Of a stretch of 64,000 bases of DNA, positions 45,131 through 51,484 are shown one piece after another; the stretch's first letter is position 1; each line of letters opens with the position of its first letter. The position numbers were made by a program, and so were the translations under genes. Where the stretch lies: NCBI RefSeq assembly GCF_003427025.1, contig NZ_QVAI01000003.1, positions 62,001 through 126,000 of the forward strand, read 5' to 3'. The notes under the pieces are model-generated. The model saw only the letters and a list, made by a program, of their open reading frames with translations, searched no databases and had not been told where the DNA came from. This DNA comes from Jiangella endophytica. Lineage in GTDB: Bacteria > Actinomycetota > Actinomycetes > Jiangellales > Jiangellaceae.

Positions 45131-45934
45131 GTGACGGAGACAGACGGAACCGCACCGGTGCCGGCCTCGGGCGCCCCCGAGGCCGGGCAACCGGCCGCGC
45201 CGCGCCCCACCCGGGTGCTGCTGAAGCTGTCCGGCGAGGTCTTCGGCGGCGGCGCCGTCGGCGTCGACCCCGAGGTGGTCAAGGGCATCGCCGGCCAGAT
45301 CGCCGAGGTCGTCGTCAAGGACGGCGTCCAGGTCGCCGTGGTCGTCGGCGGCGGCAACTTCTTCCGCGGCGCCGAGCTGCAGCATCACGGCATGGACCGC
45401 GCCCGCGGCGACTACATGGGCATGCTGGGCACCGTCATGAACTGCCTGGCGCTGCAGGACTTCCTCGAGCACCTCGACGTCGACACCCGAGTGCAGACGG
45501 CCATCACCATGGGCCAGGTCGCGGAGCCGTACATCCCGCGCCGCGCCGCCCGGCACCTGGAGAAGGGCCGCGTCGTCATCTTCGGCGCCGGCGCCGGAAT
45601 GCCGTATTTCACCACCGACACGGTCGCCGCGCAGCGGGCCTTGGAGATCGGCTGTGATCGGCTTCTGATGGGCAAGAACGGCGTCGACGGCGTCTACGAG
45701 GCCGACCCCCGCAAGGACCCCACGGCCCGCAAGTACAGCAGCATCACCTACGCCGACGTCCTGCGGCAGCGGCTCAACGTCGCCGACCCCGCCGCCTTCA
45801 GCCTGTGCATGGACAACCAGCTGCCGATCGTGGTGTTCGGGCTCGGCGAGCCGAACGGCATCGCGCGCGCCATCCGCGGCGAGCGGATCGGTACCTTGGT
45901 CGCGTCGAACATCGAGACGGTCGTCGAGGGCTGA
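45131..45934 (+). CDS. pyrH: Uridylate kinase
   Basis: The 267-residue protein has the UMP kinase motifs [37 protein letters not shown] and [14 protein letters not shown]. An extra ~25-residue Ala/Pro-rich N-terminus precedes the core; the GTG has an AGGAGG site. It makes UDP for nucleic acid and cell-wall precursor synthesis. Confidence 0.96.
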
Positions 45935-45997
45935 ACGCACGGCAGCGCCCGGGCGGTCCTCTAGGATCGTCGCCACACAGCAAGCGAAGGAGTAGTG

Positions 45998-46555
45998 GTG
46001 ATCGACGAGACCCTCCTCGAGGCCGAGGAGAAGATGGAGAAGGCCGTATCGGTCGGCAAGGAGGACTTCGCCTCCATCCGCACCGGCCGGGCCCATCCGT
46101 CGCTGTTCAACAAGATCGTGGTCGACTACTACGGTGCGCCGACCCCGGTCAACCAGCTCGCGTCGTTCCACGTCGCCGACGCCCGCATGATCACCGTGCA
46201 GCCCTACGACAAGGGCTCGCTCGGGGCCATCGAGCGGGCCATCCGCGACTCCGACCTCGGCGTCAACCCCACCAACGACGGCAACCTCCTGCGCGTCGTG
46301 CTGCCCGTGCTCACCGAGGAGCGGCGCCGCGAGTACATCAAGCTGGCCCGTGAGAAGGCCGAGGGCGCCAAGGTGTCCATCCGCAGCGTGCGCCGCCACG
46401 CCAAGGAGACGCTCGACAAGCTGGCCCGCGACGGCGAGGTCGGCGAGGACGACGCCGTGCGCGCCGAGAAGCAGCTGGAGACGGTGACGAAGACCTACGT
46501 CGAGCAGATCGACGACCTGCTCAAGCACAAGGAAGCCGAGCTCCTCGAGGTCTGA
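45998..46555 (+). CDS. frr: Ribosome recycling factor
   Basis: The 185-residue protein matches RRF ([36 protein letters not shown], then [12 protein letters not shown] and the C-terminal helix [18 protein letters not shown]). AAGGAG precedes two adjacent GTGs (45995, 45998); the second gives the usual N-terminus. It splits post-termination ribosomes with EF-G. Confidence 0.97.
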
Positions 46556-46557
46556 GG

Positions 46558-47427
46558 GTGCCGGCGAGTACACACGTGGTGATGACGGACGGAGCGCCGG
46601 GCAGCAGGTCACGCCGGCACGGGCGGGCCGGTCGCGACCTGCGGGCCGCGACGCTGGTCGGGCTCGGCCTGGGCGCGGTCGTGCTCAGTACGCTGTTCCT
46701 GCTGGAACAGGCGTTCGCCGGGTTCGTCGTCATCGTCATGGTCGTCGCGGTCTGGGAGCTGGCGACGGCGCTGGGCGGGCGGGCGATCCAGGTCCCGGTG
46801 GTCCCGGTGGTGCTGGGCACCGTGCTCATGCTGGTCGGCGCCTACCTCGGCGGCGGCTCGCCGCTGCTGGTGGGCCTCGGTCTCACGGTGGCCGCGGTCT
46901 GTGCCTGGCGCCTGGGCGACCCCCGCCCGGGCTACCTGCGCGACGTGTCGGCGGGCATCTTCACCACCGTCTACGTGCCGTTCCTCGCCGGGTTCGCCAT
47001 GCTCATGCTGCGGCCCGACGACGGCGCCTGGTGGGTGTTCGCGCTGCTCGTCGTCGTGGTGGCGTCCGACACCGGCGGCCTGCTGGCCGGCGTGCTGGCC
47101 GGACGACATCCCATGGCGCCGAGCGTCAGCCCGAAGAAGTCGTGGGAGGGGTTCGGCGGCTCGCTGATCCTCGGCATCGGCGTGGCCGTCCCGGTGGCGG
47201 TGTACGCGTTCGACGCGCCCTGGTGGACCGGCGTCGTGCTCGGCGTCACCGGCGTCGTCGGCGCCACGCTGGGCGATCTGGGGGAGTCGCTGATCAAGCG
47301 TGACCTCGGCATCAAGGACATGAGTCAGCTGCTGCCCGGCCACGGCGGCCTGATGGATCGCCTCGACTCCCTGCTGCCGACGGCGCCGCTGGTGTGGCTG
47401 GTGCTCGAGTACGTCGTCACGGCCTGA
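46558..47427 (+). CDS. cdsA: Phosphatidate cytidylyltransferase
   Basis: The 289-residue membrane protein has the CTP transferase signature: SPKKSWEGFGGSL and SLIKRDLGIKDMSQLLPGHGGLMDRLDS near the C-terminus. About eight hydrophobic segments precede it. It makes CDP-diacylglycerol, the phospholipid precursor. GTG start two bases after frr. There is no undecaprenyl synthase gene between, as is usual in actinobacteria. Confidence 0.94.
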   Translation: MPASTHVVMTDGAPGSRSRRHGRAGRDLRAATLVGLGLGAVVLSTLFLLEQAFAGFVVIVMVVAVWELATALGGRAIQVPVVPVVLGTVLMLVGAYLGGGSPLLVGLGLTVAAVCAWRLGDPRPGYLRDVSAGIFTTVYVPFLAGFAMLMLRPDDGAWWVFALLVVVVASDTGGLLAGVLAGRHPMAPSVSPKKSWEGFGGSLILGIGVAVPVAVYAFDAPWWTGVVLGVTGVVGATLGDLGESLIKRDLGIKDMSQLLPGHGGLMDRLDSLLPTAPLVWLVLEYVVTA

Positions 47428-47642: not shown

Positions 47643-48776
47643 ATGGTCGCCATCATGCCCAGACCCGGTGAGCTCACGCTCGTTCCCGCCCGGCGTGGCA
47701 AGCCGCCCCGCCATCTCGCCGACCTCGATGTCGATGCTCGCCGCCAGGCGGTCGCCGAGCTCGGTGAGCAGCCCTTCCGGGCCGATCAGCTCTCCCGGCA
47801 TTACTTCGCCCGCCACGTCAACGATCCCGCGCAGATGACGGACGTCCCTGCGGCCGTGCGCGACACGCTGGCGGCGACCATGCTGCCGACGCTGACCACC
47901 GCGGTGCGCCACCTCGAGACCGACGGCGGCACCACCCGCAAGACGCTGTGGCGGCTGTTCGACGGCGCGCTGGTCGAGAGCGTGCTCATGCGCTACACCG
48001 GCGACCGGCCGCGCGTCACGCTGTGCGTGTCGAGCCAGGCCGGCTGCGGCATGAACTGCCCGTTCTGCGCCACCGGGCAGCAGGGCCTGACGCGGAACAT
48101 GTCGGCGGCCGAGATCATCGAACAGGTCGTGGCGGCGGAACGCATGCTGGCCGACGGCGAGATCGCCGGGGGAACCGGACGGGTCACCAACGTCGTCTTC
48201 ATGGGCATGGGCGAGCCGCTGGCCAACTACAAGGCCGTCGTCACCGCCGTGCGCCGCATGACCGACCCCGCGCCGTCAGGGCTGGGCATCGGCCGGCGCG
48301 GCGTCACGGTGTCCACCGTCGGGCTGGTGCCGGCCATCGACAAGCTGGCCGCCGAGAACCTCGGCGTGCGGCTGGCGCTGTCGCTGCACGCGCCCGACGA
48401 CGAACTGCGCGACGAGCTGGTGCCGGTGAACACTCGCTGGAAGGTCGGCGAGGCGCTCGACTCCGCCCGGGCCTACTTCGAGAAGACCGGGCGCCGGGTG
48501 TCCATCGAATACGCGTTGATCCGCGAGATCAACGATCACGCGTGGCGCGGTGACCTGCTCGGGAAGCTGCTCAACGAGCGTGGCCGCGGCTGGGTGCACG
48601 TCAACCCGATCCCGCTGAACCCGACGCCGGGTTCGAAGTGGACCGCGTCGCGCCCGGAGCACGAGGCGGCGTTCGTCGCCGCGCTGCAGGAACGGGGTGT
48701 TCCGGTGACCATCCGGGACACCCGCGGAAGCGACATCGACGGGGCATGTGGTCAGTTGGCTACCGTTGGTGATTAG
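47643..48776 (+). CDS. rlmN: Dual-specificity 23S rRNA/tRNA methyltransferase RlmN
   Basis: The 377-residue radical-SAM protein has the Cys motif [26 protein letters not shown], the [15 protein letters not shown] segment and [14 protein letters not shown] near the end with the late [14 protein letters not shown] (cysteine for the dual-Cys mechanism). It methylates A2503 of 23S rRNA and A37 of some tRNAs. An in-frame ATG 12 bases downstream is an equally good start. Confidence 0.95.
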
Positions 48777-48820
48777 TATGCATTGCGCTTTGCTCGGCCG
48801 GTCTCGGGGGATATCGGCTT

Positions 48821-48855
48821 CTCGTGCAGTGAGCTGGCTGGACTCACTGCACGAG
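48821..48855 (+). terminator. Hairpin after rlmN
   Basis: A perfect 13-bp stem (CTCGTGCAGTGAG at 48821-48833 with 48843-48855) and 9-base loop lie 44 bases after the stop of rlmN. A weaker outer stem (GGCTT/AAGCC) extends it. Confidence 0.65.
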
Positions 48856-48904
48856 GAATCGCCCGAAGCCGGCCGTTCTGTGTTCGGGAGGAGAGTGACA
48901 CCTG

Positions 48905-50041
48905 GTGGCCGTCAGTCGTGAGCCTGAGTTCCGCACCACTCGTATGCGTGAGGGCTATGACCTGGACGCCGTCGACGACTTCGTCGATCTGGTGATCGAT
49001 GCGCTGGATGGGCGGCCCTCGGGGCGTGCGGTGACGCCCGAGCAGATCGAGGCCGAGGAGTTCAAGGTCGTCCGCATGCGTGAGGGCTACGTCATGGACG
49101 ACGTCGACGACTGGCTCGACGCGTCCGCGACGGAGCTGCGCACGCGCCGCAAGGCGGCCGCGCAGCAGTCGCAGCAGCACCAGCAGGTGCCGGCCAACGC
49201 CTACGCGCAGGGTCCCGGGCTGCCGCAGGGCGGCGCCGGACTCCCGCCGGGGACGCCCGGTCTGCCGGCCGGCGCGCCGGCCATGGGCGCCGCTCCGGTC
49301 GCGCCGCCGGTGGCGCAGCCGCCCGCCGCGCCGCCGGTCATGCCGCCGCCCGCCGGTGGCGGCTACGGCCCGCCGCCAGGCCCGGCCGGCCCGCCGTCGA
49401 ACCCGTCCTACCCGGCGGCCTACTACGACACCTCGCACGGGACGTCGCACGGCACGAGCCAGTACGACACCCAGGCCTACGACCCGCTGACCGACTCCGC
49501 GGTGAACGAGCTCGACCCCGTGCTGCGCGCGCTCGACACCAACTACGGCCAGACGCCGGTGCCCGCCGCGGCGCCGCAGCAGGAGCAGTACCAGCGCGCG
49601 CCCGAGCCGGCTGCCGAAGAGTCCTCGCTGTCGCCGTCCAGCACGCCGTCCACCGGCCTGCACCACATCGAGGTCTGGGTCCGCGACCTCGACGCCGCCA
49701 CTCGCTCGTTCGGCTGGCTGTTCGAGCGGCTGGGCTGGACGCTGTTCCAGGCGTGGGAGAACGGCCGGTCCTGGCAGGCGCCCGGCGGCGGCCCGTACGT
49801 CGTCATCGAGTGCTCGCCCGACCTCAGCTGGGTCGCCTACGACCGCAAGGCGCCGGGCCTCAACCACCTGGCGCTGGCGGTGCCGGAGCAGTGGATGGTC
49901 GACCGCATCGTGTCCGAGGCGCCCGCCTACGGCTGGCACCTGATGTTCGCCGACCGCCACCCGCACGCCGGTGGCCCGCACCACTACGCGGCCTACATGG
50001 AGAACGACGACGGCTTCGAGGTCGAGGTCGTCGCCCCCTGA
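48905..50041 (+). CDS. DivIVA-repeat / VOC (glyoxalase-fold) fusion protein
   Basis: The 378-residue protein opens with two DivIVA-type short modules (DivI1A-like): EFRTTRMREGYDLDAVDDFVD and EFKVVRMREGYVMDDVDDWLD (about residues 7-30 and 48-75). A ~130-residue Pro/Gly/Gln-rich linker follows. The C-terminal ~125 residues are a VOC domain: GLHHIEVWVRDLDAATRSFGW...YVVIECSP...LNHLALAV...GFEVEVVAP, with candidate metal ligands in GLHHIEV, VVIECSP, LNHLAL and VEVVAP. The start is GTG with GGAGGAGAG upstream. The DivIVA part suggests polar or septal localisation; the VOC part suggests metal-dependent enzymatic or ligand-binding activity. Function unknown. Confidence 0.85.
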   Translation: MAVSREPEFRTTRMREGYDLDAVDDFVDLVIDALDGRPSGRAVTPEQIEAEEFKVVRMREGYVMDDVDDWLDASATELRTRRKAAAQQSQQHQQVPANAYAQGPGLPQGGAGLPPGTPGLPAGAPAMGAAPVAPPVAQPPAAPPVMPPPAGGGYGPPPGPAGPPSNPSYPAAYYDTSHGTSHGTSQYDTQAYDPLTDSAVNELDPVLRALDTNYGQTPVPAAAPQQEQYQRAPEPAAEESSLSPSSTPSTGLHHIEVWVRDLDAATRSFGWLFERLGWTLFQAWENGRSWQAPGGGPYVVIECSPDLSWVAYDRKAPGLNHLALAVPEQWMVDRIVSEAPAYGWHLMFADRHPHAGGPHHYAAYMENDDGFEVEVVAP

Positions 50042-50078
50042 GAGACGCGGCACGACGAGGCCGCCCACGCGACCGAGC

Positions 50079-50143
50079 GGTGTACCGGAGGCGATGCCGT
50101 CTGCGGTAGCGGCGGGCGGCGACGGCATCCGCACCGGTACACC
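50079..50143. terminator. Compound hairpin between convergent genes
   Basis: GGTGTACCGG (50079-50088) pairs with 50134-50143, and inside it GATGCCGTC (50093-50101) pairs with 50121-50129. It lies between the DivIVA-VOC gene and the convergent SDR gene and could terminate both. Confidence 0.65.
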
Positions 50144-50155
50144 GGCGTGACGCCC

Positions 50156-50890
50156 TCAGCGCCCGAGGTAGGCGCCGCCGTTGACGTGCAGCACCTGGCC
50201 GGTGACGTGCCCGGCGGCGGGTGCGGCCAGGTACTGGACCGCCGCCGCGACGTCCTGCGTCGTCCCCTCGCGCTTGGTCATGGTCTCGTTCACCAGGCGG
50301 TCGCGCCGCGCGTCGCTCAGCCGGCCGCGGAAGAACTCGGTGCCGACCGTGAGGCCGGGGGAGACGACGTTGACGGTGAGGCCGCGTGGCCCGATCCCGG
50401 CCGCCAGCGACGCCGTCCACGCCTCGACGGCCGCCTTGGCCGCGCCGTAGTCGCCGCCGCCGCGCCGGGCCGCGATGGAGCCGATCGTGATGATCCGCCC
50501 GCCGGACGGCATCCGTGGCAGCAGTGCGGTGGTCACCAGCACCGCGGTCAGCACGTTGGCGTCGAAGTTGGCCCGCCAGGCGGCCGCCTCGGCGCCCAGG
50601 TCGCCGGGCTCCGGCGCCGGGTGGTCCAGGCCGGTGTTGCCGCCGGCCGCGTTGACCAGGACGTCCACCGTGGCGGGCAGCCGGTCGAGGGCCTCGGTGA
50701 CGGCGGCCGGGTCGGCCGCGTCGAAGTCCACCGCGCTCGCCTTCGGGCCCAGCTCGGCGACCGCGTCGTCGAGCCGCTCGCGCCGGCGGCCGGTCACCAC
50801 GACGGTGTCGCCGGCGGCCGCGAAGCCCGCGGCCACGGCCCGTCCGATGCCGGTGCCGCCGCCGGTGACGACGATCGTGCGTGTGCTCAT
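50156..50890 (-). CDS. SDR family oxidoreductase
   Basis: The 244-residue protein has the NAD(P) motif TGGGTGIG, VLVNAAGGN, the catalytic Tyr-Lys of GDYGAAKAAVEAW with the preceding Ser in TIGSIAARR, and the C-terminal VLHVNGGAYLGR. The residue after the coenzyme beta2 strand (TGRRRERL) suggests NADPH. Its AAAGGAG ribosome-binding site overlaps the MarR operator. Substrate unknown. Confidence 0.92.
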   Translation of the reverse strand: MSTRTIVVTGGGTGIGRAVAAGFAAAGDTVVVTGRRRERLDDAVAELGPKASAVDFDAADPAAVTEALDRLPATVDVLVNAAGGNTGLDHPAPEPGDLGAEAAAWRANFDANVLTAVLVTTALLPRMPSGGRIITIGSIAARRGGGDYGAAKAAVEAWTASLAAGIGPRGLTVNVVSPGLTVGTEFFRGRLSDARRDRLVNETMTKREGTTQDVAAAVQYLAAPAAGHVTGQVLHVNGGAYLGR

Positions 50891-50900
50891 CGAGAAACTC

Positions 50901-50914
50901 CTTTAGTGCTAAAG
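50901..50914. promoter_or_regulatory. MarR operator
   Basis: CTTTAGTGCTAAAG is a perfect 6-2-6 palindrome of the MarR kind in the 33-base space between the divergent SDR and MarR genes. It overlaps a -10-like TAAAGT (50910-50915) for marR, which would give a leaderless message, and the Shine-Dalgarno of the SDR gene. Confidence 0.7.
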
Positions 50915-50923
50915 TATCTGCCG

Positions 50924-51484
50924 ATGACAGAGTACCCCGAACCGGCCGACGACGGCTCGGACCGCATCCAGGCGGGCTGGCGCCGCGAGCTGCCGGGCGT
51001 CCCCGTCGGTTCCATCGGCGTCATCACGCGGATCCGGCGGCTGAGCCAGCTGCTCGCCGACGAGCGCCGCCGCACGCTCGAGCGGCTGGGCATCGACAAC
51101 GCGACGCTCGACCTGCTCAGCACGCTGCGGCGCAGCGGAGCGCCGTACCGGCTGACGCCCGGGCAGATCGCCGAGCGCAGCTTCGTCACCGCGGGCGCGG
51201 TGTCACAGCGCATCGCCCGGGCCGAGGCGGCCGGTCTGGTGCGCCGCGAGCGGTCCGCCTCCGACGGCCGCTCGGCCGTCGTCGTGCTCACCGACGACGG
51301 GCGCGCGCTGAACGAGCGCGTCGTCACCGACCTGCTGCGGCACGAGGAGACGCTGCTCGACGGCCTCGACGACGCGCAGCGCGCGGCACTGGCCGAGCTG
51401 CTCAAGACGCTGCTGGGCGACCTGACACGGCGCTTCGGTGCGCAGGACCGTCCGCCGCTCGACCACACCGACCGGCTACCGTAG
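50924..51484 (+). CDS. MarR family transcriptional regulator
   Basis: The 186-residue protein has the MarR winged helix: ATLDLLSTLRRSGAPYRLTPGQIAERSFVTAGAVSQRIARAEAAGLVRRERSASDGRSAVVVLTDDGRAL, including the DxRS-like wing. Helices on both sides form the dimer interface. A perfect palindrome in the shared intergenic region is its likely operator, so it probably represses itself and the SDR gene. The peptidase genes follow after 6 bases. Confidence 0.92.
   Translation: MTEYPEPADDGSDRIQAGWRRELPGVPVGSIGVITRIRRLSQLLADERRRTLERLGIDNATLDLLSTLRRSGAPYRLTPGQIAERSFVTAGAVSQRIARAEAAGLVRRERSASDGRSAVVVLTDDGRALNERVVTDLLRHEETLLDGLDDAQRAALAELLKTLLGDLTRRFGAQDRPPLDHTDRLP

Follow-up and report, generated by a model that had tools for sequence, protein, structure and literature searches.

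The window, the whole 64,000-nucleotide stretch of Jiangella endophytica DNA that was analysed, contains a gene whose product joins two DivIVA-type modules to a VOC (glyoxalase-fold) domain through a long linker (Table 1). The gene stands downstream of pyrH, an frr-like open reading frame, cdsA, and rlmN, all on the same strand. Its ribosome-binding site is good, GGGAGGAGAG lying immediately 5' of the GTG at 48905, and its stop codon occupies 50039-50041. On the other side, between 50156 and 53654, are genes that by eye resemble SDR (on the minus strand), MarR, and M20 family members, together with an M55 D-aminopeptidase identified by Pfam. Where the DNA of the named loci extends far enough, the M20-like gene stays near the fusion, with the MAG locus L020 as the exception; the other downstream genes do so less. 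The comparison of the MarR-like gene used an out-of-frame reading (50878-51480), in which absent Pfam matches are uninformative.

Table 1. Features of the fusion locus, with positions as numbered in the window.
Feature	Position	Strand	Remarks
pyrH (UMP kinase)	45131..45934	+	3 kb upstream of the fusion
frr-like ORF	45995..46555	+	named by eye; conserved neighbour
cdsA, phosphatidate cytidylyltransferase family	46558..47427	+	
rlmN	47643..48776	+	upstream neighbour where the family locus extends far enough; no rlmN match in MAG L020
Conserved leader	48773..48907	+	hairpin arms 48796-48812/48858-48874 and 48819-48835/48840-48857
PolyDIV-VOC fusion gene	48905..50041	+	378 aa, GTG start
DivIVA-type module 1 core FRTTRMREGYDLDAVDDFVD	48929..48988	+	residues 9-28; Y18, D24
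DivIVA-type module 2 core FKVVRMREGYVMDDVDDWLD	49061..49120	+	residues 53-72; Y62, D68
Linker	49157..49654	+	166 residues (85-250); P 21%, A 17%, G 11%
Conserved linear motif DPLTDSAVNELDPVLRALD	49481..49537	+	inside the linker, residues 193-211
VOC (glyoxalase-fold) domain	49655..50038	+	residues 251-378; candidate metal ligands H254, E302, H321, E374

A first-pass annotation had described the product as two DivIVA-type modules followed by a C-terminal VOC domain, and profile searches bear this out. The NCBIfam model DivI1A_domain (TIGR03544) matches two stretches of the protein (47.3 bits, E 1.2e-12), and an in-house module profile scores 43.4 and 42.2 bits for the two modules, while Pfam DivIVA reaches 26 bits, slightly below its cutoff of 28. 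The coiled coil behind each module is short. In the C-terminal part, Pfam Glyoxalase_4 matches residues 253-364 with 41.4 bits against a cutoff of 27 (E 1.9e-10). The closest solved relative of this part is 3ct8_A, a 'putative glyoxalase' (E 2e-22; 8e-34 in a profile search), and in the sequence alignment the homology to 3ct8 spans the entire VOC domain. The linker had been given as about 130 residues; it proves to be about 166 residues long and to hold the conserved motif DPLTDSAVNELDPVLRALD. A literature search returned no description of a DivIVA-VOC fusion, the papers containing such words being concerned, to judge by their titles and abstracts, with other subjects.

The fusion was matched in 21 of the 22 genomes of Jiangellaceae, a family of soil actinobacteria, and all 20 of those that are at least 90% complete have both of its ends. 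The sole family genome with no match is 81% complete. The named holders are species of Jiangella, Phytoactinopolyspora, and Haloactinopolyspora, together with two MAGs. In G013 the gene is divided between the ends of two contigs; the 20 other matching genomes have its two halves in a single open frame. This rules out an assembly error or a missing stop between two genes, the artefact that the first-pass annotation had itself put forward as one objection to a true fusion.

Selection has acted unevenly along the protein. An alignment of 20 distinct proteins, from which L013 and L034 (one split species, here with no N-terminus) were left out and in which the N-terminal halves L021 and L042 fell below the length limit, has the modules and the VOC domain nearly fixed and the linker free outside DPLTDSAVNELDPVLRALD. 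The motif is recognisable throughout except in MAG L020, where it is lost or degenerate. Between the window and nine relatives, dN is 0.007-0.115 for the VOC domain and 0.016-0.140 for the modules and rises as high as 0.84 in the plain linker; with MAG L020 set aside, the eight remaining relatives give 0.016-0.105 for the modules and up to 0.62 for the plain linker. For the 19 codons of the motif, dN is at most 0.051 in the eight relatives that keep it. VOC dN is lower than module dN against eight of the nine relatives (the exception being P. limicola), and VOC dN/dS is about 0.04-0.15, ratios supported mainly by the nearer pairs because dS approaches saturation in the distant ones. Purifying selection acts on both ends of the protein and on the 19-residue linker motif. 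No match to DPLTDSAVNELDPVLRALD was found in 10,599 ORFs of the collected loci, ORFs with the VOC start motif being excluded. The most divergent fusion locus is that of MAG L020 (Co-bin20). There frr and cdsA lie upstream, but rlmN has no match, the leader is unrelated to the others, and the linker motif is no longer intact.

The passages of the PolyDIV study that describe the group (PMC9858780) present PolyDIVs as proteins widespread in Actinobacteria, with two to eight DivIVA-like domains (motifs of the RGYDxxEVD type), mostly four and in even number, and propose for them a role in cell division. The same passages predict that the modules of a chain pair with each other and that a heptad coiled coil follows each motif, propose a loop as the main protein-binding site, place a UMP kinase gene near most PolyDIV clusters, and name as an extra folded domain a Ser/Thr kinase in one cluster. 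The fusion is likewise a single actinobacterial chain with tandem modules in even number, and pyrH lies nearby, scoring 294.4 bits with pyrH_bact against a cutoff of 243.9. It differs in having two modules where most described PolyDIVs have four, and a VOC domain where those passages name the kinase. With TIGR03543 (DivIVA domain repeat protein) the fusion scores 21.2 bits, below the curated cutoff of 154.2, and is not assigned to that model; the four-module PolyDIV of another actinobacterial genome, G196, is below the cutoff too (108.5 bits).

The module core GYxxxxVD is common to the fusion, Wag31/DivIVA, and GpsB, but the fusion has two modules per chain and no long coiled coil. GpsB Tyr25 and Asp31 mutants were used in peptide-binding tests, according to the section of PMC6335420 concerned with them. 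The residues spaced alike in the fusion are Y18/D24 in module 1 and Y62/D68 in module 2, and neither pair varies in the fused-protein alignment. The head was also considered as a Wag31 protein; this identity is rejected, the fusion protein having no match to the Wag31 model NCBIfam NF050102 at E <= 1 and the head being a two-module PolyDIV member. A separate Wag31-like gene (L002; 149.7 bits, under the cutoff of 260) lies elsewhere in the same genome, which also encodes a six-module PolyDIV.

The position behind rlmN recurs in other lineages. Among 86 non-family genomes with rlmN, 80 downstream stretches were used, four of them shorter than 3 kb, with G188, G180, G209, G171, G230, and G182 left out. 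A PolyDIV gene with four module matches follows rlmN in 14 of these 80 stretches from other Actinomycetes. In 13 of the 14 (L131, L132, L135, L139, L140, L142, L143, L148, L181, L205, L207, L208, and L209) the rlmN stop and a possible PolyDIV start are -4 to +25 nt apart; in the remaining one, G241, about 1.5 kb separates them. This spacing suggests that in those 13 loci an RNA methyltransferase is translationally coupled with a DivIVA-type adaptor. Given this neighbourhood and the rlmN-PolyDIV order of other lineages, the Jiangellaceae gene is most simply the rlmN-linked PolyDIV, shortened and extended by a VOC domain. Comparisons of the fused head with eight of the 14 four-module PolyDIVs are mixed: in all six genomes of G196's family it is nearer to the second module pair, in G193 and G083 nearer to the first.

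VOC proteins include glyoxalases, epimerases, dioxygenases, and thiol transferases. The candidate metal ligands of the fused domain were assigned from the alignment to 3ct8 and from characteristic VOC motifs. The first-pass annotation had pointed to metal-ligand-like H/E positions kept in this domain, and this is upheld: H254, E302, H321, and E374 are invariant in all 14 aligned fused proteins, the general pattern being H, E/Q, H, E. In a 31-row alignment that takes in more distant relatives, positions one, three, and four are conserved without exception. At the second position the fused rows, four of the six nearer relatives, and G220 have E, and G258 has T; for the outgroup that includes 3ct8 the residue is alignment-dependent, with Q for 3ct8 in the 3ct8 alignment.

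The fused domain belongs to the same Glyoxalase_4 subfamily as 3ct8 and standalone actinobacterial VOC proteins, which also go under the label YqjT-like and in which the ligand positions are mostly kept. Those proteins are mostly single-domain, scattered, and in some cases plasmid-borne, whereas the Jiangellaceae version is fused and family-wide. Within the window's genome the fused domain is the sole match to itself at E <= 1e-6, and in the class sample relatives occur in 6 of 118 genomes besides eight family genomes. Identity is 53-58% to the VOC copies in G254, G196, G128, and G044 and about 50-57% to those on Streptomyces plasmids. Matches fall in 31 plasmid records, 21 of them from Streptomyces and some chromosome-sized; none of the 31 covers 80% of the query, and all 30 of the matches listed lie in the VOC part. 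In the three plasmids inspected the relative is a single gene, with no common neighbours that would name a pathway, and two scans of viral contigs confirmed no relative. Among the VOC-bearing ORFs that the genome searches turned up in other families, none has two DivIVA modules. A phylogenetic tree groups all 20 fused rows with support of 100/100 and gives no resolution to a sister relation between them and the VOC protein of G196. Another join involving the same subfamily is seen in G128, where one open frame (L053:388-1890) combines methyltransferase, NUDIX, and VOC domains.

Structure prediction by AlphaFold gave models of low confidence, with mean pLDDT 47 for the whole fusion protein (helices at 20-34 and 64-90) and 59 for the VOC domain alone. 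Foldseek with the latter model returned a best E of 0.085, and VIA-align with the same model gave a best Z of 6.1 (50 rows listed). The matches listed by the two programs were half matches, some of them ferredoxin-like, and included no VOC protein. Models this weak count neither for nor against the predicted fold, the paired head, or the putative metal site, and the VOC fold is assigned from homology to the solved 3ct8.

The 128 nt between rlmN and the fusion contain a long hairpin (-68 kcal/mol, z -5.2). Of seven family leaders folded, five clearly beat their shuffles and two, L022 and L020, do not. Covariation was counted in the 10 of 21 distinct leaders that align gap-free. Six hairpin pairs change on both sides, a count matched by 3 of 500 shuffles; the covariation score is matched by none of 500, and sliding the partner destroys the signal. 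One hairpin pair is broken in five of the ten leaders. This covariation shows that the hairpin is kept, in RNA or DNA form. A covariance model built from the ten leaders finds 11 of 12 family sources, two of which are training members, with L020 missing and L019 weak, and has no match in the 80 non-family rlmN stretches. The leader is restricted to Jiangellaceae among the loci searched, and in Rfam nothing came near a gathering score. No intrinsic terminator and no strict sigma-70 promoter were found in 48600-50300, and the hairpin has no terminator-like T-run. By eye, a -10-like TAGTAT/TAGACT can be picked out at the rlmN stop.

A version with neighbouring genes is present in G196, a genome from another order of Actinomycetes, arranged as rlmN-PolyDIV-VOC on the same strand: the PolyDIV has four modules, and the VOC protein, of the fused subfamily, is encoded by a separate gene. 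The gap between rlmN and PolyDIV is -4 or +8 nt and that between PolyDIV and VOC about 11 nt, taking the first in-frame GTG as the start. In the wide sample, however, the two parts mostly stand apart: a VOC gene follows PolyDIV in one of the 80 stretches downstream of rlmN, and in one of eight genomes of G196's order. With six VOC genes and about 3,000 genes per genome, such adjacency would arise by chance in fewer than 1 in 100 cases, a rough after-the-fact estimate and not a test. The G196 pair and the fusion may have a common origin; because the tree lacks resolution for the G196 VOC protein, the linkage may also be independent or due to chance. A parallel in architecture comes from G233, where L071:1450-2304 likewise encodes two modules, followed at the C-terminus by a domain from a family of small-molecule enzymes, in this case a mycothiol-S-transferase (PF04978, E 2.6e-13). 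Among the 81 genomes in the family sample that includes G233, only the G233 match spans both parts of this two-module PolyDIV-MST protein. This second join of a PolyDIV head to an enzyme hints at a wider pattern.

We propose, with about even confidence, that the gene encodes a two-module PolyDIV adaptor tethering a VOC-fold metalloenzyme, with the head docked at an envelope scaffold. The two modules would pair within a single chain to form a DivIVA-like head, which would dock through its GYxxxxVD loop on a cell-envelope scaffold (the pole, the septum, Wag31, or a partner peptide). The role of the flexible linker and of the motif within it would be to hold or present the VOC domain, which would bind a metal through its four candidate ligands and act at the docking place on a small molecule, probably a toxic or envelope-related one. 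As judged from sequence, the arrangement suggests that an enzyme-like VOC domain is kept at one fixed cellular site. The polar or septal enzyme or sensor that the first-pass annotation had envisaged is plausible; its further idea of a methylglyoxal- or antibiotic-type ligand found no specific support.

VOC domains also serve as binding proteins, and the domain might be a sensor or ligand-binding switch and not an enzyme, such that a small molecule, with or without metal, alters how the head or the linker motif binds a partner. Conservation of the linker motif is as expected for a switchable partner-binding segment. The retention of all four ligand positions in the 14 fused proteins, and of three of them in all 31 alignment rows, speaks against such a switch, which we consider rather doubtful. 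We judge it unlikely that the product is a cytosolic VOC enzyme whose modules act only in folding, oligomerisation, or protein binding and play no part in localisation. The cell-division role of PolyDIVs is only a proposal in the passages cited (PMC9858780), and the neighbours of the fusion are nucleotide, translation, and lipid genes with no divisome gene among them; however, both modules are nearly invariant, loop residues included, which would be superfluous for a plain tether. It is very improbable that the VOC domain joined a PolyDIV gene late, as a passenger, and has persisted there by chance, sharing little function with the head: its relatives outside the family are scattered (6 of 118 class-sample genomes) and at least 30 plasmid records match in the VOC part, but it has the lower dN against eight of nine relatives, at low dN/dS, and is kept in all 20 good family genomes, with no loss or decay seen there.

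Beyond the tethered metalloenzyme that we favour for this locus, two-module PolyDIV heads could, quite speculatively, act as a general plug for bringing small-molecule enzymes to the actinobacterial growth zone, the Jiangellaceae gene having also acquired a structured leader in place of the coupling to rlmN in other lineages. The cases would be the fused VOC domain of Jiangellaceae, the VOC gene adjacent to a four-module PolyDIV in G196, the mycothiol-S-transferase of G233, and the published kinase fusions. The substrate of the VOC domain would tell what the PolyDIV head positions, and the fusion and the G196 pair offer a direct handle on it. If the proposal is true, Jiangellaceae provide an unusual instance of a metabolic enzyme being tied to the DivIVA scaffold, which would be testable in culturable Jiangella or in Streptomyces.
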